NCBI RefSeq assembly: GCF_003050865.1
Contig: NZ_QAOK01000019.1
Location: 1 to 64,000, forward strand
Direction of reading: 5' to 3'
Length of the DNA: 64,000 nt
DNA from: Nitrosospira multiformis
GTDB taxonomy: Bacteria; Pseudomonadota; Gammaproteobacteria; Burkholderiales; Nitrosomonadaceae
In this document: positions 49,058 to 64,000 of the stretch, in pieces
How the letters are laid out: the number at the start of each line of letters is the position of its first letter
Position numbering within the stretch: position 1 is the first letter of the stretch
Program-made: the position numbers and the translations under genes
The notes under the pieces: generated by a model
What the model was told of the DNA's origin: nothing
The model's input: the letters and a program-made list of their open reading frames with translations, nothing else
Database searches by the model: none

Positions 49058-49246
49058 TTTCCCTGCGGGTCCATTAACAGGCGCCCTCCGTTGCGACCCC
49101 CTTTCATTCCCTTATCAGCAGCAGAGCTCACAGCAGCGCACATGGCGCACAAGTTGTACTACACTTAATCAGATTTCCAGATAAAACTCTGCTTGCGCTG
49201 ATCCAACTTTAAATTTGGGAATATTTTTTTTGACTGGGGAGGAATG

Positions 49247-49459
49247 ATGACAGAACTTGCCGAGGCGGAACTTGCGGGACTGGATGCCGTTATAGAAGCA
49301 AGAAGAATGACATCCGATACGTCCGATAAATATGAGCAGATCGTGATACCCATTGGTAATGCCGGCACCGCTGTAGCGGGTGACAATGCGGGTTTATCAG
49401 GAGGTGAGGGCCTGTCGCTGGACGCACTCGTGAAACTTCGCGAGAACGCGCTGAGCTGA
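49247..49459 (+). CDS. Small leader-like peptide heading a four-gene operon
   Basis: A 70-residue soluble peptide that I do not recognise. The first half is acidic and helical (MTELAEAELAGLDAVIEARRMTSDTSDKYEQ), the second is rich in Gly, Ala and Asn (IPIGNAGTAVAGDNAGLSGGEG), ending with LSLDALVKLRENALS. No cysteine is present and there is no classical signal peptide. GGGGAGG stands 5 bases before the ATG at 49247, with another ATG one codon earlier. Only nine bases separate its stop from a membrane-protein gene, and the next two genes overlap in turn. The size, composition and gene order suggest a precursor peptide, though a small regulatory or structural protein cannot be excluded. Confidence 0.6.
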   Translation: MTELAEAELAGLDAVIEARRMTSDTSDKYEQIVIPIGNAGTAVAGDNAGLSGGEGLSLDALVKLRENALS

Positions 49460-49468
49460 TATAAGCTC

Positions 49469-49984
49469 ATGTCATTAGTCTCTATCCTGCTTTATTCGAT
49501 AGTGACTCTTTGGCTGGTAATCACATTATTGGCGCAACACTCGCGCTTCCAGTCCGTTATCAACCGGTTTAACGGACTTCATATCATTCCACGCTGGACA
49601 TTCTTTGCACCTAATCCTGGAGTCAGGGATTATCACCTGGTTATAAGGGACCGTTGCCGGGATGGGCGGCTGACAGACTGGAAAAGCGTGCCTGTTTATC
49701 CGTCGCGCCCGAAATTCGCGTACTTGTGGAATCCGCAGAAGCGCGCATCGAAGATACTGACTGATGCCATCCAGGCAATAAAGCTGTTATTGAAACGCGA
49801 TGATGTGGGACCCTCCGGACTTCCTTTCACCGTCCCCTATCTCCTTCTTTTGCATTACGCAGCCCATGCTGTGCAGCCTGAGCCGGACGCTGCCGAGTTT
49901 CAAATCGCGATTATCGAAGCTACAGGGCATCTCGAGCGGAACCTGGAATGTTCATTCCTTTCCAGTTTTCATAGCCGATGGTAA
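49469..49984 (+). CDS. Small membrane-anchored protein with FFAPNP motif, SdpA-like
   Basis: A 171-residue protein. One membrane helix lies at about residues 5-22 (ILLYSIVTLWLVITLLA). HIIPRWTFFAPNPGVRDYHLVIRDR follows, a W-FFAPNPG-DY core that recurs, as I recall, in small proteins beside HTTM or DCC genes and resembles the FF(x)xP core of SdpA proteins in the antimicrobial peptide system SdpABC. The rest is soluble and basic, with KFAYLWNPQKRASKIL. The ATG stands nine bases after the small peptide gene and the 3' end overlaps the next gene by seven bases. The role is unknown. It may help to bring the peptide to the membrane. Confidence 0.6.
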   Translation: MSLVSILLYSIVTLWLVITLLAQHSRFQSVINRFNGLHIIPRWTFFAPNPGVRDYHLVIRDRCRDGRLTDWKSVPVYPSRPKFAYLWNPQKRASKILTDAIQAIKLLLKRDDVGPSGLPFTVPYLLLLHYAAHAVQPEPDAAEFQIAIIEATGHLERNLECSFLSSFHSRW

Positions 49985-50811
49985 CTGAGGGCATGGCGGA
50001 CATCGCCTTATGCCTCGTCATCACCAAGACTCTATTGGCTGCATGGGCCCTGCTTTCCGCAGCGGAATGGTTTGTCAACCTTCACCTATTCCGCTCTGAT
50101 GGTTTGCTCACATGGAATATTCTGCGCCTGCGGCCACGCCTTGTGATCCCGGCGTCCATCCGCCATCGTGTACATGCGGAATCCGCTGTAATTGCTGTCC
50201 TGGTATGCCGTATTGTCGCGGGACTTCTGCTGCTGATCCCTTATCCCAATCATGCGGATTTGCCGTGCAGCCTGCTCATTCTGCTTTCATGCTTCTACAT
50301 GTCACGCCGCACCTGGTTCGGCGGCGATGGATCGGATCAGATGGGAATGGTCATTGCTGCAGGTCTTGCCATCATTTCCGCCGGCCTTGTGCTGGATGAC
50401 ATAAACGTGACGGCCTCTGGTGTTCTTGCAATCAGCGGTCAAGCGGTCCTCGCCTATTTTGTTGCCGGCGCCGCCAAGGTTGTTTCGCCCGTCTGGCGAG
50501 ACGGAAAAGCATTGCCCGGTGTGATGAAAACCCGAACATACGGACACTCCCTTGCCGCGGGTTTTGCCGCAGACCGACCCGGCTTCTGCAAGTTCGTATG
50601 CTGGCTGACTATCGGGACGGAAATGCTGTTTCCACTCGTTCTATTGGCGCCACCCGGCGTGGCGATTGCAAGTCTATGCTGCTTCGCCCTTTTTCATTTT
50701 TCCAATGCCTACTTCATGGGATTGAATGCGTTTGTCTGGCCTTTTCTCGCGACTTATCCGGCTGTCATGCTAGCCAATTCGGCAGTCCGCGGCTGGATGG
50801 GGTGGGCATGA
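49978..50811 (+). CDS. HTTM-like multi-span membrane protein, SdpB-like
   Basis: A 277-residue protein with about seven or eight membrane helices, including CLVITKTLLAAWALLSAAEWFV, AVIAVLVCRIVAGLLLLIP, LPCSLLILLSCFYMSRRTWFGGDGSDQMGMVI, AVLAYFVAGAAKVVSPVWRDGKALPG and the last LFHFSNAYFMGLNAFVWPFLATYPAVML. The order of helices, with a polar RTWFGGDGSDQ loop and a YFVAGAAKVxxPVWRDG segment, fits the HTTM superfamily that includes SdpB and vitamin-K-dependent carboxylase-like proteins. Start and stop overlap both neighbours, so translation is coupled. A second ATG five codons in is possible. A membrane oxidation or carboxylation role is an inference from the superfamily only. Confidence 0.65.
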   Translation: MVTEGMADIALCLVITKTLLAAWALLSAAEWFVNLHLFRSDGLLTWNILRLRPRLVIPASIRHRVHAESAVIAVLVCRIVAGLLLLIPYPNHADLPCSLLILLSCFYMSRRTWFGGDGSDQMGMVIAAGLAIISAGLVLDDINVTASGVLAISGQAVLAYFVAGAAKVVSPVWRDGKALPGVMKTRTYGHSLAAGFAADRPGFCKFVCWLTIGTEMLFPLVLLAPPGVAIASLCCFALFHFSNAYFMGLNAFVWPFLATYPAVMLANSAVRGWMGWA

Positions 50812-51206
50812 CAGCAACTGCGAATGATCCAGATCGCCTCTCCGTCATTTATGACGGAGAATGCCCTTTTTGTGCGGCGTTTGTGAAACTTTACGCTCTA
50901 CGGAAGAATATAGGCGAGATAGAACTCATCGACGCCCGGACAAGGCCTGATCTGGTCCGGGAGTTGCGAGCCCAAGGCATGGAAATCAATGAAGGCATGG
51001 CCGTGATATGGCAGAGGCATTATTACCACGGGGCCAATGCAATGCATCTTCTTTCCATACTCGGTGCTGACAGGGGATTTTTTGGTGGGTTGAACAAATT
51101 CCTGTTCTGCAACAGAAACGCCGCTGCACTGGTTTATCCCGTACTTGCGACTGGCCGCAGAGTGGCCCTATCGTTACTGGGCAGAAAAATGATTCCACAC
51201 CGATGA
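50808..51206 (+). CDS. DCC family thiol-disulfide oxidoreductase-like protein (DUF393)
   Basis: A 132-residue protein. It carries LSVIYDGECPFCAAFVKLYALRK, with the CxxC-type pair at Cys 19 and 22 after the DG motif that names the DCC family. GMAVIWQRHYYHGANAMHLLSILG in the middle and PVLATGRRVALSLLGRKM at the end fit the family, whose fold is thioredoxin-like. Family members often accompany HTTM proteins. The ATG overlaps the previous stop by four bases (ATGA). Longer versions of the frame run through the upstream gene and are not real. It is the last gene of the operon and is convergent with the PepSY gene. Confidence 0.85.
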   Translation: MTATANDPDRLSVIYDGECPFCAAFVKLYALRKNIGEIELIDARTRPDLVRELRAQGMEINEGMAVIWQRHYYHGANAMHLLSILGADRGFFGGLNKFLFCNRNAAALVYPVLATGRRVALSLLGRKMIPHR

Positions 51207-51274: not shown

Positions 51275-52546
51275 CTATACGTCTCCCACTCCCTTCATCA
51301 GCATTTTCTTTCGCGCCCACCGCTTCTTCTGCCAGATGATCACTCCCGTAACTGACAGCATCGCCACCAGCAGGCCCATGACGGATACGAAAATACGTCC
51401 GGGAAGACCGACGATACGTCCGGAATGCAGCGGAAACTGCGCCTGCATGAAAATATCGCCCGCACTGCCCTCACCCGGCACATTTGCTCCGGCGGGTGTT
51501 CCATCCTTGCCATCGAAGAAAAGCGAGGGATTTCCCAGTCCCACATCCCCATGGTCGTTCCCCGGCTCAAAGAAGATCACACCATAAACCCCCACTTCGG
51601 GATCATAAAATATGCCACCGGGAGGCGTATGCCATCCGCGCTTTTCCGCTTCGGTTATTGCACCCTGCAGGATGGTGTGGCGATCCACCATCGGCTCGAC
51701 AGGCTGGTCGGGAGGATTGGGAGTACGTGTGAAGGGACTGGGCGATAGCATCGAAAAAAGCGACACCAGCGGCCGCATGACCTGCTGGTTGAGATTCATC
51801 GACACGGCCGTCACAGCCAGGATCAGCAGGAATCCCCATACCCACACTCCACCGGATCGATGCAGATCGAAGTTCAGCCTTGCTCCTCCTTGCCGCCAGC
51901 GGAATGCAAAGGATTTGGTCCATGCACTCGCCTTGGGAAATGAAATCCACAGAGCAATGAAGCAATCGAGTGCCCAGATGATCGCAAGAGTGCCCATGAA
52001 CAATATGCCCAACTCGATTCCGAACCCGTCCGGAATATGCATGCTGTAGTGCAGCTTGTACAGAAACGGCAGCAGATTCTCGCGACTGAGGGAGATCTCG
52101 CCCCACATGCGCTTGCCGCGCACTTCTCCATCAACTGGGTCGAGGGCTATCTGGTTGAAATCCAGATCGAAGGCCGTGCCTGTTGCCCGGTCGAGGCGCG
52201 GCTTTACTGCCAGGCCAAGGTTATGCCCCGGCTCGACGGAGAGTGGAACCCAGGTCACCAGCAACCGGGGGTCCGCTGCTTCCAGTCGATCGGCCAGCAG
52301 CAGCGGAGGCTGCGAGATGCCACCAACATTCCTTGCTTCGTATAATTGGGGATTCAGCCACTCATCCAGCTCATGATCCCAGGAGATGACAGCGCCGGTA
52401 AGGCCGGATACGAAAAGAAATGCGGCCAATAAAAGACCCGTCCAGCGATGCGCCAGTACAAGAAAATTGCGCCCGATCGAAAGTCTCTCCGCGCGCCGGG
52501 TATCTTGTGCTCCGGTTACGCCCGGCACCGTGATCATTCGTTTCAT
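51275..52546 (-). CDS. PepSY-associated membrane protein (PiuB-like)
   Basis: A 423-residue inner-membrane protein. LSIGRNFLVLAHRWTGLLLAAFLFVSGLTGAVISWDHELDEWLNP is the first helix with the conserved HRWxG and H-ELD; GILFMGTLAIIWALDCFIALWIS and two more helices follow, and the last is GRIFVSVMGLLVAMLSVTGVIIW. Periplasmic PepSY-type domains lie between. Family members near siderophore genes (PiuB, FoxB-type) reduce ferric siderophores or are iron-regulated membrane reductases. It begins four bases after the stop of the exporter gene on the same strand, so it belongs to the same siderophore operon. The reductase role is inferred from family members. Confidence 0.85.
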   Translation of the reverse strand: MKRMITVPGVTGAQDTRRAERLSIGRNFLVLAHRWTGLLLAAFLFVSGLTGAVISWDHELDEWLNPQLYEARNVGGISQPPLLLADRLEAADPRLLVTWVPLSVEPGHNLGLAVKPRLDRATGTAFDLDFNQIALDPVDGEVRGKRMWGEISLSRENLLPFLYKLHYSMHIPDGFGIELGILFMGTLAIIWALDCFIALWISFPKASAWTKSFAFRWRQGGARLNFDLHRSGGVWVWGFLLILAVTAVSMNLNQQVMRPLVSLFSMLSPSPFTRTPNPPDQPVEPMVDRHTILQGAITEAEKRGWHTPPGGIFYDPEVGVYGVIFFEPGNDHGDVGLGNPSLFFDGKDGTPAGANVPGEGSAGDIFMQAQFPLHSGRIVGLPGRIFVSVMGLLVAMLSVTGVIIWQKKRWARKKMLMKGVGDV

Positions 52547-52550
52547 TGCT

Positions 52551-54218
52551 TCATGTCATACGGTCAAGTACCAGCGGCGGGGCCGCGATTGCGTGTGCAG
52601 CATCTTTCAGTGATGGACGACCATTGAACGTCAGGCATCCGCTCTCCATACGTATCAACCGGTCGGCAAGATGAAAGTAACGGTCATCGTGCGATATCAC
52701 CAATACAGCCTTGCCCATGGCGCGCAATTCCGGAAGGAGCTCGCGGTAAAAGACTTCCTTGAAGACCGGGTCCTGATCCGCTGCCCATTCGTCGAATATA
52801 AAAAACGGGCGGTTTTCCAGATAGGCAACCACTAAAGCGAGACGCTTGCGCTGTCCTTGCGAAAGGGCAAGCGTCGTGAAAGCCCCGTTCTGGACTTTAA
52901 CCTTGTTTTGCAGGTGCAGTTTGGCTAAAAGTCGATTGCCTTCATTATCCAGGTCAACTCTGCCCGTTTCCAGCAAGCGGTCGAAAAGATGGAAATCCGA
53001 AAAAACCGTCGAAAAAAGCTGCCTGTAGCGGTCCCGGTTTGTCTCATCGACCACTTTTCCATTGAAAATTATCTGCCCTTCCTCCGGCGGATAGAGTCCA
53101 ACCAGCAACTTGGCCAAAGTAGTCTTGCCGCTCCCGTTGCCCCCCACTAGAAAAGTAATCTCTCCGGGACGGAAATCCAGGTCGATGGGGCCGAGCGTGA
53201 ACAATTCATCGCTCTGTTCATGATAATACCGGTGCAACACGCCCTGGAGTGCGATGAATTCCAAGCCTGAGGGAGAAGAATTATCGGTCTCGATTTCCAA
53301 TGTGGTCATCGCCCGCGTTATTTCCTCGATCCGCTCCGCAGAAACCTTGGCCAGATTGGCGCGGGGAATATTCAACAGAAGCGCTTCGAGCGGTCCCACC
53401 ATGTAAACGAACACCAGCGCGTAGCCCGTCATGACCAGAGCTCGGTCAGGACCATCACTCACCAATGCGAATAATACCATCCCGATAAACACATAGAGCA
53501 GGAACTGGGCCCATCCACCGGATGCGACGAAGACGGACATTCCAAAAGTCCTTTCGCGGCGCACGGTTTCGATCGAGCCCGACAGCACATCCTCATAGAA
53601 TGCCTTCCGCTTCCGGTTATTGAGACGAAGCTCCTTGGCCCCGTCGGTCAGGGACCGAAAATAGGAAAACAATTTGTCCTGCTCTTCGGACGCAATATTC
53701 AAATGGCGTATTGCGCGCAGATGGGCAAGATGATATCCCACGGACCCCAGGCCAACCACAAGGATAGCGAGCAGGAATACCTGCCATGAAAGCCACGCCA
53801 TATAAAGCAGACATCCGGCGACGATGACGGCATTCATCAGGATGACGGGAAAGCTCACAAAGAATTCGGCAACGTGCGTGCAATGCTCGGCAAGGGCCGA
53901 CTGTATGCGGGCAGCCCCCACCGTTTCAAGATTACGGTAATCGGCGGCTAGCACCTTTCTGGCGACAAAGCTGCGAAGTTCCGCGTGCGCCCGTTGTCCC
54001 AGGCGCTCGAAAAGAATCGCTGCGCTTACATAACTCAGCATCACGGCAACGGCAGTGGCAATAAAAATGAGCGCCATGGTCCCCCGTTCGCTCTCGGTCG
54101 CGGTGAGCGCAGAATTGATCTGTGCGACGAGAAACACGCTGCAAGCACCATGGAATACTGTGACCAATGAAGCGGCTGCCAATAATACCCTGGATTGGTT
54201 GATAAGATACTTGAGCAT
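52551..54218 (-). CDS. Cyclic-peptide/siderophore ABC exporter, PvdE/SyrD type
   Basis: A 555-residue half-transporter. The membrane domain (about 1-300) has six helices, with TDGAKELRLNNRKRKAFYED in the coupling part. The ATPase domain has GGNGSGKTT (Walker A), LSQGQRKRLALVVAYLENRPFFIFDEWAADQDP (signature and Walker B) and VISHDDRYFHLADR (switch His). PvdE carries pyoverdine precursors from the cytoplasm to the periplasm; family members sit in NRPS siderophore loci. It faces the acyltransferase gene across a 461-bp divergent region with two Fur-box-like sites and is followed by the PepSY gene. Export of the product made by the NRPS at the right end is likely. Confidence 0.9.
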   Translation of the reverse strand: MLKYLINQSRVLLAAASLVTVFHGACSVFLVAQINSALTATESERGTMALIFIATAVAVMLSYVSAAILFERLGQRAHAELRSFVARKVLAADYRNLETVGAARIQSALAEHCTHVAEFFVSFPVILMNAVIVAGCLLYMAWLSWQVFLLAILVVGLGSVGYHLAHLRAIRHLNIASEEQDKLFSYFRSLTDGAKELRLNNRKRKAFYEDVLSGSIETVRRERTFGMSVFVASGGWAQFLLYVFIGMVLFALVSDGPDRALVMTGYALVFVYMVGPLEALLLNIPRANLAKVSAERIEEITRAMTTLEIETDNSSPSGLEFIALQGVLHRYYHEQSDELFTLGPIDLDFRPGEITFLVGGNGSGKTTLAKLLVGLYPPEEGQIIFNGKVVDETNRDRYRQLFSTVFSDFHLFDRLLETGRVDLDNEGNRLLAKLHLQNKVKVQNGAFTTLALSQGQRKRLALVVAYLENRPFFIFDEWAADQDPVFKEVFYRELLPELRAMGKAVLVISHDDRYFHLADRLIRMESGCLTFNGRPSLKDAAHAIAAPPLVLDRMT

Positions 54219-54254
54219 GGCTGTCCCACAAGGAAATGGATATCAGGGAAGACG

Positions 54255-54273
54255 AATGAGAATTACAATTATT
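54255..54273 (-). promoter_or_regulatory. Fur-box-like site upstream of the exporter gene
   Basis: AATGAGAATTACAATTATT resembles the reverse of the Fur consensus GATAATGATTCTCATT, with the strong TTCTCATT half. It is about 40 bp upstream of the exporter ATG. Iron-dependent repression is inferred. Confidence 0.55.
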
Positions 54274-54561
54274 TACGCTTGAACGATTCATATCACCTCT
54301 CGGTTCACGTCATCTCCTGTTAATCACCAAAGCAGGTTCCGGGCATTTCACTCCTTGGAGCAATTTCGCTCCTTAGGGCAATTTCCTCTTGCATGACCTG
54401 GAAAGACAATTGCAGCGGGAGTGTTTGCCGTTATCCGCACAGGCAATTATCCGCATAGACCCTTCTAATCCCCCATTTTCTCCAGAACAGAATTTTCCCT
54501 CGTACTTCTCCCAAGGTTATAGCTCTCACAATGAGCAATCAATCCAGCTGCAATTGTAAAA

Positions 54562-54578
54562 AATAATGTTTCTCATTC
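54562..54578 (+). promoter_or_regulatory. Fur-box-like site upstream of the acyltransferase gene
   Basis: AATAATGTTTCTCATTC differs from the common Fur consensus GATAATGATTCTCATT at only a few positions. It is about 100 bp upstream of the acyltransferase start. Its position suggests control of the plus-strand biosynthesis genes by iron. Confidence 0.65.
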
Positions 54579-54679
54579 GTCTTTAACCAGAATAACAACG
54601 CGAAATACAGCGAACACGAATAATAGCGACAGCGATAGCCCGATAGCGCCGTTCTTACAATACTTATCCGGAAAACGAG

Positions 54680-55774
54680 ATGGGACATTTACACGAGCAG
54701 GGCCAGCATCTCTCCCCTCGTGCGACGTCGATTAATTGTCGTCCCGATCGGACTGCATATTCGGCCACGCTCGACGGCAACACCTTGCTTTTACAACCAG
54801 CGAATGGTGTCGAAAATTCGCGGTGGCAGCTGGACCAGCAGAGTGATGGACTGACTCTGGAATGGATAGGGTCCGATGCTGAAAAACCAAAGCTCGTGGA
54901 AGTATTGGCGGCAATTGAAGCTGCGTTCGTCAGTTTTCCTGTAGCAGATAAACTGGATCTCCTAGCTCCTTTCGACCAGGCTGAAGAACTGCTTCGATCA
55001 GGTCTTCTCCTTCGCGACAGGAGCGGTCAGGCCACTGTGAATATCGAGCTTTTCTGGCAACAGCCGAGAATGTGGCTGGTGCCGCCTCAGCCCCATGCCT
55101 TCCCCGTGACTTATGTGCTGAGCGAGGGACGCCGTCATCCGCTGCGGCCTCCCAAACCGGCCGGCACCGTATACCAGCGCCATATCGACTGGCTCGGCCG
55201 TACGCTGTCATTCCGTACGGTGGACTTTCACCGGGACTTGGAACGCTTCAACCGCTGGATGAACGACCCCGTAGTAGCGGCATCCTGGCGGGAAGAAGGC
55301 GATCTGGCAAAACACCAGGCTTATCTACAAGCCATTTCTGCGGACCCTCATGTTACAGGGCTCATCGCGAGTCTCGATGACGAGGCTTTCGGTTATTTTG
55401 AAGTTTATTGGGCAAAAGAAGACCGTATTGCCCCCTTCTATGATGTGGATGACTTCGATCGAGGCTGGCACGTGCTGATCGGTGAAATCCGTTTTCGCGG
55501 CAAGCCCTTCGTCACAGCCTGGCTGCCATCGATCTCCCATTACCTGTTTCTCGACGATTGCAGGACGCAGCGCGTCGTCATAGAACCTCGCACGGATAAT
55601 TACAAAATGATTCGCAATCTCGTGAGGTGCGGTTATGCGAATCTCAAGGAATTCTATTTCCCCCACAAACGCGCCATGCTCGGCATGTTGTTGCGGGAAC
55701 GCTTCTTTGCAGAACGGCTGTGGGTTCCACGCGATGTCATCGCAACATCCTGTTCCACATCTTCTTTATCCTGA
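54680..55774 (+). CDS. GNAT acyltransferase of siderophore synthesis (IucB/RhbD-like)
   Basis: A 364-residue protein. The N-terminal 180 residues are a non-catalytic part. The C-terminal half is a GNAT domain of the siderophore hydroxylamine acyltransferase type: RTVDFHRDLERFNRWMNDPVVAASWREEG near 190, FGYFEVYWAKEDRIAPFYDVDDFDRGWHVLIGE near 250, then RVVIEPRTDNYKMIRNLVRCGYANLKEFYFPHKRAMLGMLLRERFF. The H and D residues in the YDVDDFDRGWHVLIGE region are conserved in IucB. It would acylate the N-hydroxy amine made by the next gene, giving a hydroxamate. The acyl group (acetyl is most common) cannot be told. Ten bases separate it from the hydroxylase gene. Confidence 0.87.
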   Translation: MGHLHEQGQHLSPRATSINCRPDRTAYSATLDGNTLLLQPANGVENSRWQLDQQSDGLTLEWIGSDAEKPKLVEVLAAIEAAFVSFPVADKLDLLAPFDQAEELLRSGLLLRDRSGQATVNIELFWQQPRMWLVPPQPHAFPVTYVLSEGRRHPLRPPKPAGTVYQRHIDWLGRTLSFRTVDFHRDLERFNRWMNDPVVAASWREEGDLAKHQAYLQAISADPHVTGLIASLDDEAFGYFEVYWAKEDRIAPFYDVDDFDRGWHVLIGEIRFRGKPFVTAWLPSISHYLFLDDCRTQRVVIEPRTDNYKMIRNLVRCGYANLKEFYFPHKRAMLGMLLRERFFAERLWVPRDVIATSCSTSSLS

Positions 55775-55784
55775 GGATATCGCT

Positions 55785-57092
55785 ATGCAAATACATGATC
55801 TGATCGGTATCGGCTTTGGTCCCTCCAACATTGCGCTTGCCATTACCCTGGAGGAAAAGAAACAGGAAGGATACGACATAGACGCGTTTTTTATCGAGAA
55901 ACAGCCGGGTTTCGCCTGGCATCCAAACATGATGCTGGACAATGCGCATATGCAGATTTCCTTCCTGAAGGATCTGGTCACCCTGCGGAATCCCTCCAGT
56001 CACTTTACATTCATCAACTATCTTCATCAAAAACAGCGGCTGCAGGACTTTATCAATCTCAAAACCTTTTTCCCCAGCCGCCACGAATTCAACGATTACC
56101 TCGCCTGGGCCGCCTCCCATTTCGACGATCGCTGTGCTTACGGCGAAGAAGTTCTGGAAGTGCTACCGGAGAAGCGTAATGATGAAGTGATGCTGCTGCG
56201 CGTGCGTTCGCGGGATTCCACTGGAACTGTGCGGGAACGGCTGACCCGCAATCTCATTGTCAGCGTCGGGGGTGTTCCCAGCATACCCGAATGCTTCCAA
56301 TCGCTGAAAGGCGACAAGCGAATATTTCATTCGAACAGTTATCTCCGCGAGATCGAGCGGCATAAGGAAGCAAAAAAAATAGCGGTCGTGGGTGCAGGTC
56401 AAAGCGCGTCGGAAATTTTCATGGATCTGCACAACCGCTCTGATGCTCCGCAGATTGACCTGATCATGCGCGCCCGCGCAATCAAACCGTCGGACGACAG
56501 CCCCTTTGTAAACGAAATCTTCAATACCGATTTCACCGACTTCGTTTTCAGTCGTTCAGAACACGACCGAGTTTCTCTTCTGGAGGAGTTCTGGCATACC
56601 AATTACGCTGCACCTGATCTGGTTTTGATCGAACAGATCTTTAATGTGTTCTACCAGCAGAGAGTTACTGGCAATACCCGCCACCGCTTCCTGCGGCGTC
56701 ATGAAGTCGCGAGCGTCAGTGCTTTGCCGGAAGGCGGCATTCAATTATTTCTGCGCGATTTGAATGCGGGGCGGGAATACAGTGCGGTCTACGATGCAGT
56801 CGTGCTTGCAACCGGCTATGGACGGAATTATCACAAATCCTTGCTGAAACCCCTTTCACCCTATATGGATGACTTCAGCGTAGATCGCAACTACCGGCTG
56901 AAAAGTACGCCGAATTTTCGGCCTGCCATCTTCCTTCAGGGGGCCTGCGAATCAACTCACGGTCTGAGCGATACGCTGCTTTCAGTTACAGCAGTCCGCA
57001 CGAACGAAATAGGACAGGCGCTCGTGGGTATGGTCAATGATCCGGTTGCGAAGCAGGCAGAAAACCCGGTGCGTGCAGTGGCCGTCCGTTGA
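55785..57092 (+). CDS. L-ornithine N5-oxygenase (PvdA-like)
   Basis: A 435-residue FAD- and NADPH-dependent monooxygenase that hydroxylates the side-chain amine of ornithine (or lysine). MQIHDLIGIGFGPSNIALAI holds the FAD GxGPSN motif at residues 10-15. MQISFLKDLVTLRNPSSHFTFINYLH is the substrate-site stretch shared with PvdA and SidA; IAVVGAGQSASEIF near 195 is the NADPH motif; VVLATGYGR near 340 closes the fold. The KDLVTLRNP form favours ornithine over lysine. The ATG at 55785 with GAGGA upstream is chosen over longer frames that overlap the previous gene. It is the first committed step of the hydroxamate. Confidence 0.9.
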   Translation: MQIHDLIGIGFGPSNIALAITLEEKKQEGYDIDAFFIEKQPGFAWHPNMMLDNAHMQISFLKDLVTLRNPSSHFTFINYLHQKQRLQDFINLKTFFPSRHEFNDYLAWAASHFDDRCAYGEEVLEVLPEKRNDEVMLLRVRSRDSTGTVRERLTRNLIVSVGGVPSIPECFQSLKGDKRIFHSNSYLREIERHKEAKKIAVVGAGQSASEIFMDLHNRSDAPQIDLIMRARAIKPSDDSPFVNEIFNTDFTDFVFSRSEHDRVSLLEEFWHTNYAAPDLVLIEQIFNVFYQQRVTGNTRHRFLRRHEVASVSALPEGGIQLFLRDLNAGREYSAVYDAVVLATGYGRNYHKSLLKPLSPYMDDFSVDRNYRLKSTPNFRPAIFLQGACESTHGLSDTLLSVTAVRTNEIGQALVGMVNDPVAKQAENPVRAVAVR

Positions 57093-57186
57093 ATCTTGAA
57101 AACGAAAATCTACTTCAATCTCATGAATACGAGTTGATAACACCTCCCCCACTTACAATTTTTTAACTACCAGCAACCACAAAAAA

Positions 57187-59538
57187 ATGAAAGCCTATAC
57201 AAAAACTATTAAAGGGCATCGTCGTCCACTTACTCCACTTACACGACCCACCAGACTTGTAATCGCAATACAGTACGCACTCCTCAGCCTGTCCGTGGCT
57301 GGCTACGGGCATGCACAGGAAACTTCCCTGGAGTCAGCCAAAAAATTTCAAACGAGTGTTCCTGCGACAGAAGATAATGCCGAGTCCTCTGCTACAGAGT
57401 CTTCCAGATCGGGGGAAAAAGCTTCAAAAGAGAAAACCTCCCCGACTCAGGATGCTACGCAGCGAGGGGAGACCACTGAATCAGCCAAACCCTCCGAAAC
57501 GGTTCTGCCGACCCTGGTCATCCGGGAAAAAGGAGTCCAGGAAGGATATGGCGTTAAAAACAGCATGACGGCGACCAAAACCAAGACGCCGATTATAGAG
57601 GTACCGCAGTCCATTTCAGTCATCAATCGCAATGAACTGACCATGCGCGGGGTAAATCTCAACTTCACCGAAGCACTGCGCTATGTACCGGGGGTCGTAG
57701 CTGACACACTTGGTTTCAATGGAACAGGCTTCGAGTATGTAAGCATGAGGGGCTTCAATTCCCTGAGCACTGCCAACTTCCGGGATAATTTAAGCCAGCA
57801 GGGGAGAGGATTTTTTTTTGCTGACTTCATTACCGACCCCTATTCCCTCGAGCGGGTAGATGTATTGCGCGGTCCCACTTCGGTGACGTTTGGCCGGGGC
57901 GATGCGGGAGGTATCATAAACCGTGTTACAAAGCTGCCCACCTCCACGCCTATCCGGGAGGTCGAGCTTCAGTACGGCAATTTCGACCGCAAGCGGATTG
58001 CCGGAGACTTTGGCTTGGCCAATGAAGATGGAACGCTCATGTTTCGCCTGGTGACCAGCGCGCTGGATACGGACACCCAGGTACGCTTTCCCAATACAGG
58101 TGGGGACCGTGCGCAAATCAGGCGCTTCTACATTGCGCCGTCGCTGACCTGGCGCCCCACGGACAGGACATCCGTCACACTTTTTGGCGATATCCTGAAC
58201 AACCGCAGCGAAGCGGCCGCCTTTTACGTAGCAACGCCAGAGGGCAGTCCCACCAATACGTTGCTGGGCGAACCCAACTTCACGCGGTATTCAAGCGACC
58301 AGGCTTCCTTCAGCTACAAACTCGAGCACCATTTCAACGACACCTTCACGGTACGGCAAAACTTCCGTTTCATGAGTCTCGATGGCAGATACAGAGACAT
58401 TAACCCCGCAGGATTTGCCGCGGATGGACGGACCTTGGATCGCAGTTCAGTCGCTACCCGCGAACGGTTGGATCAAACCGTGCTGGATACGCACGTGGAA
58501 GCTCGTACCCGGACAGGTCCCCTCAATCATACCGTACTGGCCGGAATCGACTGGAACCGTGTTGAGTCCACCCTCAACCATTTTATAGGCAGCGCTCCCT
58601 CCATTGATATTTTCAATCCTGTATATAACCAGCCGGTGCCCACCCCGGATTTCCTATTCATCGATGGCAACCAAAAGATAGATCAAGTTGGATTTTACGT
58701 ACAGGATCAAATCAAGTTCAACCAGTGGGTGTTGACTCTGAGCGGCCGCCACGACAGAGTGTCGAGCGTTACCAACGTTAATATTTTCGATCCGCAGCAT
58801 AACGCGAGCAAGGATTCAGCATACACCGGTAGGGCGGGGTTGACCTATCTTTTCTCCAACGGAATTGCGCCTTATTTCAGTTACTCACAGTCGTTTCTGC
58901 CTCAATATGGAATCGATTTTTTTAATAACACTCCCTTCAAACCTGCGCGCGCTTCCCAGTATGAAGTGGGCATCAAGTATCAGCCTCCGGGCACCAGGAA
59001 TCTGTTTACGGCGGCATTGTTCGAATTGACCAAAACCAACGTTTTGATTCCTGATCCCCGCACACCGCTTGGCGTGTCGCAAGCAGGAGAGATACGCTCC
59101 CGGGGCGCGGAAGTGGAAGCAAGAACGGAAATTTACCGGGGAATGAATTTGATTGGCGCATTCACTTATAACGACGTCAAGGTAACAGAAAGCGCCACTG
59201 GTTTTATAGGTAACATGCCTGTTCGCGTACCCAACCTGACGACCTCAGCCTGGCTCGACTATAACCTCGGCACATTGAATGTTAGCTGGTTGAAGGGGTT
59301 CTTCATCGGAGGCGGCGTACGCTATGTGGGCAGGGTATTCAATGATGAGGCGAATACCAGCACTACACCTTCCTTTACCCTCTTCGATGCAATGCTGCGA
59401 TACGATCACGGCCCCTGGCAATTTCTCATCAATGCCAACAATATATTCGATGATAAATACTATTCGGCCAGCACCGGCGGAAATTTCTTCCTGGGGACAC
59501 GACGTAGTGTTATAGGGACATTGAAACTCAGGTTTTAA
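57187..59538 (+). CDS. TonB-dependent siderophore receptor
   Basis: A 783-residue outer-membrane receptor. A signal peptide ends near residue 44 (VAGYGHAQ). An unusual linker rich in S, E, K and T follows (about 50-110), before a TonB-box-like VLPTLVIRE. The plug has IIEVPQSISVINRNELTMRGVNLNFTEALRYVPGV and YVSMRGFNSLSTANFRDN, then LERVDVLRGPTSVTFGRGDAGGIINRVTK. The 22-strand barrel ends GTLKLRF with a terminal Phe. There is no N-terminal signalling (STN) domain, so a FecR-type regulator is not expected. It should import the ferric hydroxamate made by this locus. It follows the hydroxylase by 94 bp. Confidence 0.92.
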   Translation: MKAYTKTIKGHRRPLTPLTRPTRLVIAIQYALLSLSVAGYGHAQETSLESAKKFQTSVPATEDNAESSATESSRSGEKASKEKTSPTQDATQRGETTESAKPSETVLPTLVIREKGVQEGYGVKNSMTATKTKTPIIEVPQSISVINRNELTMRGVNLNFTEALRYVPGVVADTLGFNGTGFEYVSMRGFNSLSTANFRDNLSQQGRGFFFADFITDPYSLERVDVLRGPTSVTFGRGDAGGIINRVTKLPTSTPIREVELQYGNFDRKRIAGDFGLANEDGTLMFRLVTSALDTDTQVRFPNTGGDRAQIRRFYIAPSLTWRPTDRTSVTLFGDILNNRSEAAAFYVATPEGSPTNTLLGEPNFTRYSSDQASFSYKLEHHFNDTFTVRQNFRFMSLDGRYRDINPAGFAADGRTLDRSSVATRERLDQTVLDTHVEARTRTGPLNHTVLAGIDWNRVESTLNHFIGSAPSIDIFNPVYNQPVPTPDFLFIDGNQKIDQVGFYVQDQIKFNQWVLTLSGRHDRVSSVTNVNIFDPQHNASKDSAYTGRAGLTYLFSNGIAPYFSYSQSFLPQYGIDFFNNTPFKPARASQYEVGIKYQPPGTRNLFTAALFELTKTNVLIPDPRTPLGVSQAGEIRSRGAEVEARTEIYRGMNLIGAFTYNDVKVTESATGFIGNMPVRVPNLTTSAWLDYNLGTLNVSWLKGFFIGGGVRYVGRVFNDEANTSTTPSFTLFDAMLRYDHGPWQFLINANNIFDDKYYSASTGGNFFLGTRRSVIGTLKLRF

Positions 59539-59582
59539 TGTCAGCACAGAGAAACTTGTTCTACGATAGATGAGACGCTTGT

Positions 59583-60584
59583 ATGGCGCTTGATCCTGAT
59601 CTTGCAGCATTTCTCGAACTTGTGGAAGCGGGCATCAGCAATGGTGTCCCTCCCTTGCACGAGCTGCCGCCCGCGAAAGCGCGCGAACAATACGACATAT
59701 CCACCCTGGCTCTGGATAGCCCCGGTATGGAGGTGGCAAGTGTCAAGGAAATCGGCATCCTTTGCCGGGATGGAAATGAGATAACAGCGAGACTCTATGC
59801 GCCTCTGCTGGACGAGTCATTGAATGGTTTATCGGCATCCGCGCTGCTGTATTTTCATGGGGGGGGATATTGTGTAGGCAGCCTGGATTCCCACGACTCG
59901 CTATGCCGCACACTGGCTGCGCTGACCCCCTGCTGCGTGCTGAACGTCAGCTACCGGTTGGCGCCTGATCATCCGTTTCCCACCGCGGTGCATGATGCGC
60001 AAGATGCCTACCAATGGCTTCTTTCCAACGGACCCGCTCATGGTATCGATCCCCAACGGATAGCCGTGGGAGGCGATAGCGCAGGGGGCACGCTGGCCAC
60101 CGGATTGACTATCGCCGCCAGGGAAATGGGTTGGCCGCAGCCGGTATTCCAGGCGCTGCTCTACCCATGCACAAGCGCATGGCAGGATACTGATTCGCAC
60201 CGCCGCCTTGCACAGGGATATCTGCTCGAAGCCCCGACGCTGCAATGGATGTTCAACAATTACCTTACCAGCGAAAGAGACCGGACAGACTGGCGCTTTG
60301 CGCCGCTTGAGGCAGAGGATTTAAGTGGCCTCGCTCCGGCATTCATCGCCCTGGCTGAATACGACCCGCTCGTGGATGAAGGAGTTGAATACGCCAGCAG
60401 GCTCAAAGAAGCCGGCGTGCCTACTCAACTGAAAATATATGAAGGGATGACGCATGATTTCGCACGTCTGGGGAATATCCTCAACGACGCAAGCAAGGTA
60501 CGAGAGGATATTGCACGGGCGCTGACTATGGGCTTTGAAGTGGGGCAGAAGGTGGGTCTACGCCCGCAACACATCTTGCCCTGA
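59583..60584 (+). CDS. Alpha/beta hydrolase, hormone-sensitive-lipase family
   Basis: A 333-residue esterase. LLYFHGGGYCVGSLDSHDSLCRTLA holds the HGGG oxyanion motif, VGGDSAGGTLATGL the nucleophile Ser in GDSAGG, LAEYDPLVDEGVEYASRL the acid Asp and YEGMTHDFARL the His. No signal peptide is seen. It follows the receptor by 44 bases and may be co-transcribed. In a siderophore locus it could release iron by cutting the siderophore or edit its acyl groups, but a general esterase with no link to iron is equally possible. Confidence 0.88.
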   Translation: MALDPDLAAFLELVEAGISNGVPPLHELPPAKAREQYDISTLALDSPGMEVASVKEIGILCRDGNEITARLYAPLLDESLNGLSASALLYFHGGGYCVGSLDSHDSLCRTLAALTPCCVLNVSYRLAPDHPFPTAVHDAQDAYQWLLSNGPAHGIDPQRIAVGGDSAGGTLATGLTIAAREMGWPQPVFQALLYPCTSAWQDTDSHRRLAQGYLLEAPTLQWMFNNYLTSERDRTDWRFAPLEAEDLSGLAPAFIALAEYDPLVDEGVEYASRLKEAGVPTQLKIYEGMTHDFARLGNILNDASKVREDIARALTMGFEVGQKVGLRPQHILP

Positions 60585-60589
60585 TAGAT

Positions 60590-60831
60590 GCATCACGATT
60601 ATAGCTGTGCAACCAGTCATCCAGATCGATTTGCAATTCCTCGATTGAGCGATATATTTTTCTGCGAAACGCCACCTGATAAAACTCTTGCAGAATGGTC
60701 TGTGAACGCGCTTACAGATGTCATTGGTCAATGACATCGAGCATGATAGTCAGGTAGAGCTGGTAATCATGGATTTCTGGCTTGTCACAGTACTCAGTGC
60801 CAAGATCAGTCAGAACGTGGCTCAGTTCATC
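60590..60831 (-). pseudogene. Decayed integrase-core transposase, IS481-like
   Basis: The minus strand reads in one frame ELSHVLTDLGTEYCDKP then HDYQLYL, two stops, and finally LQEFYQVAFRRKIYRSIEEL then QIDLDDWLHSYN. This follows, as I remember the family, the conserved C-terminal DDE part of IS481/IS3-type transposases (VLTDRGTEYCG...ALNDIEHT...EFYQVTFRKKLY...DLDEWLDHYN). In-frame stops and a missing segment of about 15 codons show that it is dead. No N-terminal half or clear IS ends were found. Confidence 0.75.
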
Positions 60832-61184
60832 TTCATGCAAAACCCCTCCTTCAAAGGAAGTATTGCTAAATACTGACGTTGCCGCCGGCTACATTTTGTG
60901 AGCCCCATCGTAGGCTGCATTATTTGCTGAAATGGGAACGATGTCCTTGCACGACCAATTCCTCGTGTTCCAGCCAGAACGTACAGAATCCTCCAGCTTC
61001 TGAATTCGGTTAAATTGCATGAAGCCGCTCGGCTGATCCTAATAGGTGCTCGGGGGTAGTGGGTTCTTGCAAAAAAATTCTTGACCCTGTCGAAAACTCT
61101 TACATTCACTTCGATTAGTCCATTATTTTCTGCCATGCTGCTGGCGGGGCTGGGATTGGTAGGGTCTATGGTTCGACGTAAAAA

Positions 61185-61220
61185 CTTAACAACCCCCGGC
61201 TAAAGTCGGTAGTTGTTAAG
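61185..61220. repeat. Hairpin with 9-bp perfect outer stem
   Basis: CTTAACAAC (61185-61193) and GTTGTTAAG (61212-61220) pair perfectly; inside, CCGGC and GTCGG can also pair with one G-U. It is 99 bp past the NRPS stop on the minus strand. It may be an element end or an NRPS transcript end. Confidence 0.7.
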
Positions 61221-61318
61221 TGGGACCATGGTTGAAACAGTTCCTGGCCTAGGTGCTTTATCTAGCATGTCGCATATTGCAGACCTCGTGCAGCACTATT
61301 TCTCAAACTGGAACCGAA

Positions 61319-64000
61319 TCAAGTAATCTCGATTGAGGCACGCGATGTGAGACTGCATTCTATGCCCAGTAATAAAGCCTCTGCTCGCACGATGGCAAAA
61401 TGATTCGTGTCGATCTCGTTTTGAAGTTGTTCAGCCTGGTCTATTTGCCGCGCAAGAGCCAATCTGTCTGATAGCGGACGTGCTGCCACCCACCAGCACG
61501 CGGGCTTTACGGACATGGGATTCAACACGGGCGCTTGCGCGGCTATCGCCTTTAGGTGACGAGCTACTATAAAGATACGTGCCAGCTCTTCCGCTCCCAG
61601 ATCTGCATAGCCGCCCTCTCCATTATTAGGCAGAATTGCGGCTTCTGGTGTTTGTCCCGCGGAAATCAATTCATCCAGCAAACCTGCCAAAGTCTCTTCC
61701 GATGGCTGCTCCGAGGATTGCAGACAACTCTTTTGATTTCCATCAGGGATAACTCCATCCGCGCCGTCAATTTTCGCTCCGGGCAGCACCACGGAAACAA
61801 AATCGGAAAAGTCCTGTCGCCAGTCGTCCGGCCCGGTCTCGCCCATACCGGGAATGAAAGGATCGATGAGGCCGAGAAATGCGATCTCCTGCCCCTCCAC
61901 CTCCAGTAACGCAGCCACCATGGCTGCAAGAGTGCCGCCAAGGGACCAGCCTGACAGGTGGTAAGGTCCTTTCGGCTGGGCATGGCGAATGATCTGGACA
62001 TAATCCACCGCCATCTGGACGAGAGAAGTATCGCGATGTCCGGGATCAGAGAGCATGCGGCAAGGTATTCCATAGACTGTTCGCTTCCCCTGTAGATGTC
62101 GCGCAAGCGGCTGGTAGTCGAACACTGTTCCCAATCCGGCATGGATGCAGAATAATGGCTCGAGTTTCGCTTTTTCGTCACTCTGATTTAACAGCAGCAG
62201 TGGCTGTGTTTTGTCAGAGGCTTCAACGTCCAGACCGAGCAAACCGGCAATGGTTGGACGTTGCATCAGATCCCGCAGCTTGAAATCGAATTTCAACCCG
62301 GGCAGGTTGCGCATTCGAGCCATGACTTTCAGACTGGAGAGCGAATCTCCGCCGAGAGCGAAGAAGTTGTCCGTCTCGCCTACCCGCTCCACACCCAGCA
62401 CCTCCTGCCAGATCTGAGCCAGAAGCCTGGCCTCCGGAGTAGAGGGTGCTCGATAAGTGTCGGCAGCAACAGCATCCGCCTCCGGTAATGCACTGCGGTC
62501 AAGCTTGCCACTGGGCAATCGGGGTAAATCGTCCAGGATGACGATATGCGTGGGCACCATATATTCGGGCAGCCGCCTGGCAAGTTGCTGCTTCAGCGTG
62601 CTTCCCAACCCCGCACTCCCCTTCCGGACTAACGCAGTCGCCCCCCTCATCTCATTCTGCACGACATAAGCGGCGAGTTGCGGTCCTCCCACCCCTTCCC
62701 GAACAACGACTGCAACATCGGTCAGTCCGGTAAGCTCACGTACGCATGCCTCTATCTCGCCCAGCTCGATCCGGAACCCGCGAATCTTCACTTGATGGTC
62801 AGCACGGCAGATATATTCGATATTGCCGTCCTCCAGCCAACGCACCAGATCACCCGTGCGATAGAGCCGGCCGCCATTTCCGTCAAATGGATCGGCTACA
62901 AAGCGTTCCGCTGTCAGTCCCGCTCGTCCCAGGTACCCGCGAGCAAGGCCATAGCCCCCAATGTACAATTCCCCAATCATGCCTACGGGTACCGGTTGCA
63001 TATCGACGTCGAGCACATACGCGGTACGTTCTCCCACGGGTCTGCCGATAGGTGCGTAGGCACAATCGAAACTGTTGCTTGCTTCCGTCTTCCAGATCAA
63101 TGGGGTAACAACCGTCTCGGTGGGTCCGTAACCATTGATCAGAATGCGCGGCCGCAAGGTCTTTCGCACCAGATCGTAGGAAGCTTTGGGCATGGCTTCG
63201 CCTCCGAAGACATAAAGCTCTACCGGGGGCGGATCGCTGCGGGGCGCAGCCCATTCGGCAACCTGGCCCAGGTAAGCGGGCGGAAATGCCGCATTGGTAA
63301 TGCCATAGCTGTGTAAAGCGTCGTATGTCTGCTCCGCGGTCCACAATTCCTGGTCGCGCACTGCCAGACCGGCACCGACTGTCAGTGCGGTCAGCCAGCG
63401 CTCATGTGCGCCATCGAATGAGAATGACATGAAGAGCAGCTCGCATGAGTGCGGTGTCATACCGTAAATCCCGGCGGTCGCTCGGCAGTGCATGCTCAGT
63501 GGACCGTGCGCTACCGCTACTCCCTTGGGGAGCCCGGTCGAGCCCGATGTGTAGATAATGTACGCCAGATTATGCTCATGGAGGAGAATGTCGGGGTCAG
63601 AGCCCGATTCTGCCGTGAGATCCAGGGAATCCAGCAACAGCGCCTGCCCTCCAAAGCCGCTGCCGAGCTTGGCGAGCAACTTTTCTTCCGTCAAGAGGAG
63701 TGACATGCCGCTGTCCTTCACCATGAAGGACAGGCGCTCTACCGGATATTCGGGGTCGAGTGGTACATAGGCTCCGCCGGCCTTGAGCACGCCCAGCAGC
63801 GTGACAATGACTTCGAGCGAGCGTTCCATCGCCACTCCTACTCTCACTTCCGGTCTCACACCCATACGGGCGAGATGGTGCGCCAGCCGGTTTGCCCGCT
63901 CATTCAACTCCGCATAGGATAGCTCCTGCTCGCCCATGAGCAGTGCAATCGCTTCAGGGTGGTGTTCCGCGTTCTGCTCGATCAGGTTGTGCACAAACTG
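61319..64000 (-). CDS. NRPS terminal module: adenylation, carrier and thioesterase (5' end beyond window)
   Basis: About 893 codons; the reading frame continues past the right edge, so more upstream modules are likely. An adenylation domain covers the first 500 residues: LAYIIYTSGSTGLPKGVAV (A3), FSFDGAHERW (A4), INGYGPTETVV (A5), GRLYRTGDLVRW (A7) and LPSGKLDRSAL (A10). A carrier domain follows with DNFFALGGDSLSSLKV (Ser for phosphopantetheine). A thioesterase (about 600-890) has GWSLGGTLA with the nucleophile Ser. Reading the specificity pocket by hand gives D-G-E-A-V-G-G-V-T, close to codes I recall for N5-hydroxyornithine derivatives; this is uncertain. With the hydroxylase, acyltransferase, exporter and receptor it builds a hydroxamate peptide siderophore. 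Confidence 0.93.
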   Translation of the reverse strand, partial: QFVHNLIEQNAEHHPEAIALLMGEQELSYAELNERANRLAHHLARMGVRPEVRVGVAMERSLEVIVTLLGVLKAGGAYVPLDPEYPVERLSFMVKDSGMSLLLTEEKLLAKLGSGFGGQALLLDSLDLTAESGSDPDILLHEHNLAYIIYTSGSTGLPKGVAVAHGPLSMHCRATAGIYGMTPHSCELLFMSFSFDGAHERWLTALTVGAGLAVRDQELWTAEQTYDALHSYGITNAAFPPAYLGQVAEWAAPRSDPPPVELYVFGGEAMPKASYDLVRKTLRPRILINGYGPTETVVTPLIWKTEASNSFDCAYAPIGRPVGERTAYVLDVDMQPVPVGMIGELYIGGYGLARGYLGRAGLTAERFVADPFDGNGGRLYRTGDLVRWLEDGNIEYICRADHQVKIRGFRIELGEIEACVRELTGLTDVAVVVREGVGGPQLAAYVVQNEMRGATALVRKGSAGLGSTLKQQLARRLPEYMVPTHIVILDDLPRLPSGKLDRSALPEADAVAADTYRAPSTPEARLLAQIWQEVLGVERVGETDNFFALGGDSLSSLKVMARMRNLPGLKFDFKLRDLMQRPTIAGLLGLDVEASDKTQPLLLLNQSDEKAKLEPLFCIHAGLGTVFDYQPLARHLQGKRTVYGIPCRMLSDPGHRDTSLVQMAVDYVQIIRHAQPKGPYHLSGWSLGGTLAAMVAALLEVEGQEIAFLGLIDPFIPGMGETGPDDWRQDFSDFVSVVLPGAKIDGADGVIPDGNQKSCLQSSEQPSEETLAGLLDELISAGQTPEAAILPNNGEGGYADLGAEELARIFIVARHLKAIAAQAPVLNPMSVKPACWWVAARPLSDRLALARQIDQAEQLQNEIDTNHFAIVRAEALLLGIECSLTSRASIEIT

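Follow-up and report, generated by a model that had tools for sequence, protein, structure and literature searches.

What do four tightly packed genes of the soil ammonia oxidiser Nitrosospira multiformis, encoding a small peptide, two membrane proteins and a thiol protein, accomplish together? They lie in the window, by which we mean the whole stretch of 64,000 nucleotides of contig NZ_QAOK01000019.1 that was analysed, and a preliminary description of this DNA had taken them for a peptide modification or export cassette recalling the SdpA/SdpB system. The plan of a peptide-modification cassette is supported by the co-inheritance of the genes and by the fact that its two membrane proteins are homologous to those encoded in linaridin-type RiPP loci, and we regard the operon as probably, if not securely, a RiPP-like cassette that combines a linaridin-type membrane pair with a DCC partner. 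The literature on Nitrosospira bacteriocins and RiPPs, and on HTTM proteins in connection with linaridins, Sdp or carboxylases, holds no account of this cassette among the matches listed.

A conserved operon and its peptide

Four tandem open reading frames of 70, 171, 277 and 132 amino acids occupy the plus strand within 49247-51206 (Table 1), with a 9-base gap after the peptide gene followed by overlaps of 7 and 4 bases; on recheck this packing into about 2 kb proved exactly as first described. The same gene order is found in the window and seven further loci, and GGAGG occurs at the place corresponding to the ribosome-binding motif of the window in seven of the eight (by eye; the exception is L025). 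A promoter and terminator scan of the cassette gave nothing above shuffled sequences. The obg gene lies upstream of the cassette in seven of the eight loci, and in the eighth, from a metagenome-assembled genome (G018), the contig is short and obg is on a different one. Downstream, the window and the four closest loci continue with PepSY and ABC genes, and three of the more distant ones with a proB-like frame recognised by eye.

Table 1. Features of the cassette in the window
Feature	Position	Strand	Basis and remarks
Shine-Dalgarno-like GGAGGA before the peptide start	49238..49243	+	read from sequence
70-aa conserved peptide, putative substrate/precursor	49247..49459	+	ORF, conservation, dN/dS; second in-frame ATG at 49244
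LinL-like protein of 171 aa, single N-terminal hydrophobic stretch, motif IPRWTFFAPNPGVRDYH	49469..49984	+	hhalign, hydropathy
277-aa predicted HTTM-fold polytopic membrane protein	49978..50811	+	AF2/Foldseek, hhalign
132-aa DCC1-like thiol-disulfide oxidoreductase (CPFC)	50808..51206	+	PF04134, invariant Cys pair

The peptide contains 11 alanines and 8 glycines among its 70 residues and no cysteine, in agreement with its first description as Gly/Ala-rich and cysteine-free, and it has no match in Pfam or NCBIfam at E<=10, a threshold to be read with the fact that HMMER drops most matches above 0.1. The gene is real and under purifying selection, with dN/dS relative to the window copy of 0.09-0.21 in all seven comparisons; together with the gene order kept in eight loci, this makes the cassette more than a chance arrangement. 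Invariant positions number 12 of 25 in residues 1-25, 23 of 32 in residues 26-57 and 2 of 13 in residues 58-70. The AF2 model (mean pLDDT 53) shows two helices, 6-21 and 58-69, with no confident structure in between, residues 24-54 falling below 50; since the alignment is shallow (seven sequences), this low confidence is weak evidence. The most conserved stretch is also the one predicted to be unstructured, which would fit a segment that is modified. The conserved leader and variable core that the preliminary description had hoped for were not seen: the genus peptides have no hypervariable core and their middle is the most conserved part, so that sequence variation gives no pointer to an antimicrobial.

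The same pattern bears on another possibility, that the 70-residue protein is a small soluble subunit or regulator of a complex of the HTTM, LinL-like and DCC proteins whose true substrate is something else. The lack of a leader and variable core, the two predicted end helices, and a rate of change similar to that of the partners (identities between the window and L025 of 61% for the peptide, 71% for the FFAPNP protein, 66% for the HTTM protein and 63% for the DCC protein) are all in keeping with such a role, as is the fact that no exporter or protease gene lies within the four-gene operon. The lack of a confident AF2 fold, though it comes from seven sequences, speaks against it, as do the homologous loci described below, and we consider a subunit role unlikely, if still worth some weight.

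Distribution within and beyond the genus

Profile searches of 23 genus genomes (Nitrosospira/Nitrosovibrio) recovered the peptide in eight, the FFAPNP protein in the same eight and a DCC protein in ten, and in a set of 61 genomes (the organism's own and its relatives) the peptide and the HTTM protein both turned up in an identical group of 8, all within the genus. Named sources of HTTM relatives are N. multiformis (Nl7, Nl18 and a MAG), Nitrosovibrio tenuis Nv1 and two Nitrosospira MAGs. Peptide, FFAPNP and HTTM genes are jointly present in 8 and jointly absent in 15 of the 23 genomes. In one of the 15 (G004, locus L088) obg and a proB-like frame enclose a lone DCC gene, 59% identical, with the other three genes absent; in the remaining 14 the stretch read downstream of obg contains no cassette gene. 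Two further DCC proteins, the second of the organism's own genome (G000 C1) and that of G009, were rejected as cassette members, no cassette being seen by eye around either. On a tree of obg, which retains open forks, presence and absence of the cassette require 3 changes compared with a mean of 6.8 for shuffled states, and 1 of 500 shuffles was as low; with so few changes, descent with losses is the simplest reading of its history. In the G018 MAG (L024/L029) the HTTM frame has two in-frame stops, which counts against the cassette reading, and the peptide, FFAPNP and DCC genes are intact. Because of these stops L024 was left out of the HTTM alignment A4; alignments A5 and A6 were built with 5 and 4, respectively, of the eight rows from the genus.

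Outside the genus the peptide could not be found: among 398 genomes of the phylum the only one with it is its own, the other 397 having none, the 72,556 plasmid records searched contain none, and 40 pattern matches in viral contigs include none that encodes a relative. A phage or viral origin of the cassette was considered and dropped, as nothing matched. Homologues of the peptide separated from the two membrane genes, which would speak against a cassette, appeared nowhere in the genus, phylum, plasmid or viral searches. The FFAPNP profile found 3 of 369 genomes of the class, including its own, the other two weakly (E 2.6e-6 and 7.7e-4), and the HTTM profile found 5 of 398 genomes of the phylum and, when widened, 2 of 300 of the order, its own included each time. 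At all four HTTM-profile loci outside the genus an FFxxP-type frame precedes the HTTM gene, and neither a peptide precursor nor a DCC gene was recognised beside them. The alphaproteobacterial FFxxP proteins were rejected as homologues of the FFAPNP protein, the likeness of three of them together with that of L047 being limited to the motif (prob 7.4). Proteobacterial relatives of the membrane pair are few, and this rarity counts against the RiPP-cassette reading.

Proteobacterial HTTM/FFxxP pairs that have no recognised precursor, and the solitary DCC gene of G004, would be expected if the membrane pair and the DCC protein performed a general membrane or quinone redox task and the peptide gene shared their operon by chance. 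This we think quite improbable, given that peptide, FFAPNP and HTTM genes come and go together in the 23 genomes and that the peptide is under purifying selection.

The membrane pair and linaridin-type clusters

Searches of plasmids with tblastn (E<=0.01) returned 18 records for the HTTM protein and 15 for the FFAPNP protein, all 15 being among the 18. Fourteen loci were read (L045-L052 and L101-L106), each distinct organism entry being represented once; the other four records come from the same species and have equal scores. A small peptide gene lies near the membrane pair in 11 of the 14, and in 7 of these (L045, L049, L050, L052, L102, L104, L105) the peptide carries the PxxxTP cleavage motif of linaridins, which argues against a mere subunit role for the window peptide. 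Among 21 candidate peptides, which were picked from the annotation or by eye (the frames of L052 and L104 measure 191 and 115 aa from the first start), 13 have the motif, compared with 35 of 705 other small open reading frames. All seven PxxxTP loci also encode an alpha/beta hydrolase, fused to the HTTM protein or separate (from annotation or Pfam/NCBIfam). Against the linaridin-like RiPP model NF033403 the Embleya peptide scores 76.7 bits and clears the cut-off of 40; the other plasmid-locus peptides match linaridin models below cut-off or not at all. No precursor was recognised in L046, L047 and L051.

Several of these loci have features of their own. In L048 and L103, on Streptomyces plasmids, genes for HTTM, alpha/beta hydrolase and FFAPxP proteins stand beside annotated lantibiotic dehydratase (LanB) and lanthionine synthetase C (LanC) genes, with short peptides that have cysteine near the C-terminus (that of L048 is 4.5 kb upstream of the HTTM gene), so that hybrid lanthipeptide clusters are possible. 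In the Tsukamurella plasmid locus L101 (3891-8729) an alpha/beta hydrolase gene overlaps the HTTM match and an FFAPEP protein is present; genes of the alcohol dehydrogenase and proline racemase families come next, and a Gly-rich 64-aa peptide without PxxxTP lies upstream. The Haloplanus plasmid locus L051 (3980-10348) holds an archaeal FFAPxx and HTTM pair near YcaO, SagB-type dehydrogenase and M28 peptidase genes on the opposite strand.

Compared by hhalign with nine FFAPxP proteins of actinomycete RiPP-type loci, the window FFAPNP protein aligned over 156 of 171 columns (prob 99.7, E 1.3e-26), and the HTTM protein matched seven HTTM proteins or regions of linaridin-type loci with prob 100 and E 1.3e-41; the sets compared also include both LanB/LanC loci and, in set A10, the Tsukamurella locus. 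By these alignments it is the pairs of actinomycete linaridin-type RiPP clusters, and not SdpA/SdpB, that stand closest to the membrane pair outside the genus; the FFAPxP proteins of those clusters are identified as LinL by elimination rather than against a named LinL.

Linaridin clusters (cypemycin, grisemycin, legonaridin, corynaridin) comprise a precursor, HTTM, LinL and an alpha/beta hydrolase, and the cassette shares with them HTTM and LinL-like proteins that align over most of their length and an adjacent small peptide gene. It differs in that PxxxTP is found in none of the eight genus peptides, that the peptide matches no linaridin precursor model of NCBIfam at E<=10 and shows no likeness to the Embleya linaridin-like precursor, which was thereby set aside as a relative, and that no alpha/beta hydrolase, methyltransferase or ABC transporter gene lies within the four-gene operon; an esterase-like frame seen by eye at 59583-60584 is about 8 kb away, beyond other genes. 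The cassette adds a DCC protein, its host is a Gram-negative ammonia oxidiser and its peptide is strongly conserved. Lacking both the motif and an alpha/beta hydrolase gene in the operon, the cassette is, judged by gene content, not a linaridin.

The HTTM-fold protein and GGCX

The preliminary description had called the third protein HTTM-like, and here the evidence is divided: in Pfam the window protein matches no HTTM model, PF05090 included, the only match being SH3_11 (E 0.077), whereas its relatives L044, L047, L036, L035 and L042 exceed the PF05090 cut-off (L043, L046 and L051 have no match) and its AF2 model (pLDDT 81, pTM 0.79) most resembles GGCX. The first six Foldseek matches are all GGCX chains (prob 1.00, TM by query 0.54-0.58, rmsd 7.6-8.0), with E from 1.8e-3 to 2.4e-2, none below 1e-3; the next match has prob 0.14. 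On the strength of this model the protein is assigned the HTTM fold. The likeness to GGCX extends to the fold of the membrane part and not to sequence: neither the HTTM profile nor the HTTM region of L036 matched GGCX in a PDB sequence search, so that no tool-based placing of HTTM residues on GGCX was obtained, and carboxylation by the window protein has no support. Invariant among eight diverse HTTM proteins (alignment A9) are Leu25, Gly118, Gln155, Tyr160, Lys167, Trp173, Gly176, Pro219, His240 and Phe252, of which Lys167 is presumably comparable to the active-site lysine of GGCX.

The vitamin K-dependent gamma-glutamyl carboxylase GGCX is coupled with VKOR in a redox system, and the cassette could be imagined as its bacterial counterpart, an HTTM enzyme with a DCC reductant performing carbanion chemistry on an invariant core and defining a new RiPP class. 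The thioredoxin-like DCC partner would then supply the HTTM protein with reducing power, possibly through the respiratory quinone, for epimerisation, dehydration or carboxylation, and ammonia oxidisers would gain a conserved peptide-derived signal or cofactor. We consider such a parallel improbable.

The DCC protein and fused modules

The fourth protein, earlier recognised as a CxxC protein of the DCC type, indeed has the CPFC motif and matches PF04134 with E 4.3e-13 and 50.9 bits (cut-off 27.8); both cysteines are invariant in 8 of 8 rows. In two genomes of the same class the three modules of the window proteins occur as fused chains. L035 (8957-10735) is a single 592-aa frame joining HTTM, DCC-like and FAPxP/DUF5819-like regions, with 31.8 bits for HTTM (over the cut-off), 23.7 for DCC (below 27.8) and 16.9 for DUF5819 (below 27.1), and in L036 a DCC gene, its product 30% identical to the window DCC protein, comes after a 602-aa HTTM-FAPxP frame; frames of at least 100 aa were considered in both neighbourhoods. 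Fusion of the three modules elsewhere argues that the LinL-like, HTTM and DCC proteins of the window would work as one complex.

Comparison with Sdp systems

Likeness to SdpA and SdpB, part of the original proposal, turned out to be weak. Were the operon an SdpABC-like toxin system, the peptide would be exported, kill, and be matured by SdpA and SdpB homologues. Several features are shared with SdpABC/DUF5819-HTTM cassettes, in which a small protein is followed by FFAPxP-type and HTTM proteins, and the HTTM relatives L044, L035 and L036 match the SdpB model TIGR04033 below cut-off. A DCC gene is also nearby in an Sdp-like cassette on the S. parvus plasmid NZ_CP135078.1 (L106, 3557-6831), which unites a 110-aa protein with a signal-like start, a DUF5819 protein, an SdpB-like HTTM protein, a 167-aa protein and a DUF393/DCC protein. 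Its HTTM protein reaches E 2.4e-20 and 73.3 bits against TIGR04033 (cut-off 178.4) and matches the window HTTM protein weakly (E 4e-3). The window HTTM and FFAPNP proteins, however, match no Sdp model at E<=10, TIGR04033 included; the FFAPNP protein reaches E 0.0083 against the DUF5819 model, below cut-off, and aligns with the DUF5819 protein of L106 over 44 columns around the motif only (prob 75). The peptide has no signal-like hydrophobic stretch, its highest 19-residue hydropathy mean, the sole measure used, being 0.97. Model, signal-peptide and alignment tests thus disfavour an Sdp-type toxin cassette, to which we give very little credence.

A possible mode of action

As a RiPP-like cassette, the operon could work as follows. 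The 70-residue peptide, in the cytosol, would be the substrate; the LinL-like and HTTM-fold proteins would form a membrane complex that binds it and introduces a chemical change in its conserved middle, roughly residues 26-57, with the HTTM protein as the putative catalytic subunit acting through the invariant Lys167 and His240, and the DCC protein would assist as a thiol-redox helper. The chemistry may begin with proton abstraction and end in C-alpha epimerisation or, less likely, Ser/Thr dehydration. Release and export of the peptide would presumably follow, and the operon has a gene for neither. The absence from the operon of PxxxTP, hydrolase, exporter, protease and variable core, and the ability of the DCC gene to stand alone, are points against this reading.

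What the HTTM and LinL-like proteins do in linaridin clusters is itself unsettled, dehydration or epimerisation being suspected in the passages of the literature available to us. Within those passages, LinL is named as the linaridin marker and a part in Thr dehydration, by an unclear mechanism, is suspected for the homologues of HTTM, alpha/beta hydrolase and LinL (PMC9927463), grmL is described as indispensable and possibly an epimerase (PMC10373908), and cypemycin dehydration is ascribed to kinases and lyases (PMC10880069); the last, as far as the excerpt goes, speaks against a dehydratase role of the pair, for which reason we put epimerisation first. The corresponding excerpts of PMC7369419 and PMC8068269 contain nothing bearing on the pair. 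A minimal operon that pairs one candidate substrate with both membrane proteins and a single redox protein, in a host unrelated to the actinomycetes, would offer a simple system for this question. It would also bring nitrifying bacteria into the range of linaridin-type machinery, with a conserved instead of a variable peptide.

Downstream neighbours

The PepSY and ABC genes were rejected as parts of the cassette, since they adjoin it only in the window and the four closest loci. Neither was found in the two more distant loci of sufficient length (L023 has just a 55-residue ABC match elsewhere); frames of PepSY and ABC size, in the same order, directly follow obg in several cassette-free genomes (by eye). 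In the window they open a siderophore-type region (51275-64000), beginning with a PepSY_TM protein and an ABC transporter (Pfam) and continuing, as seen by eye, with acyltransferase-like, lysine/ornithine monooxygenase-like, TonB receptor-like, esterase-like and NRPS-like frames.
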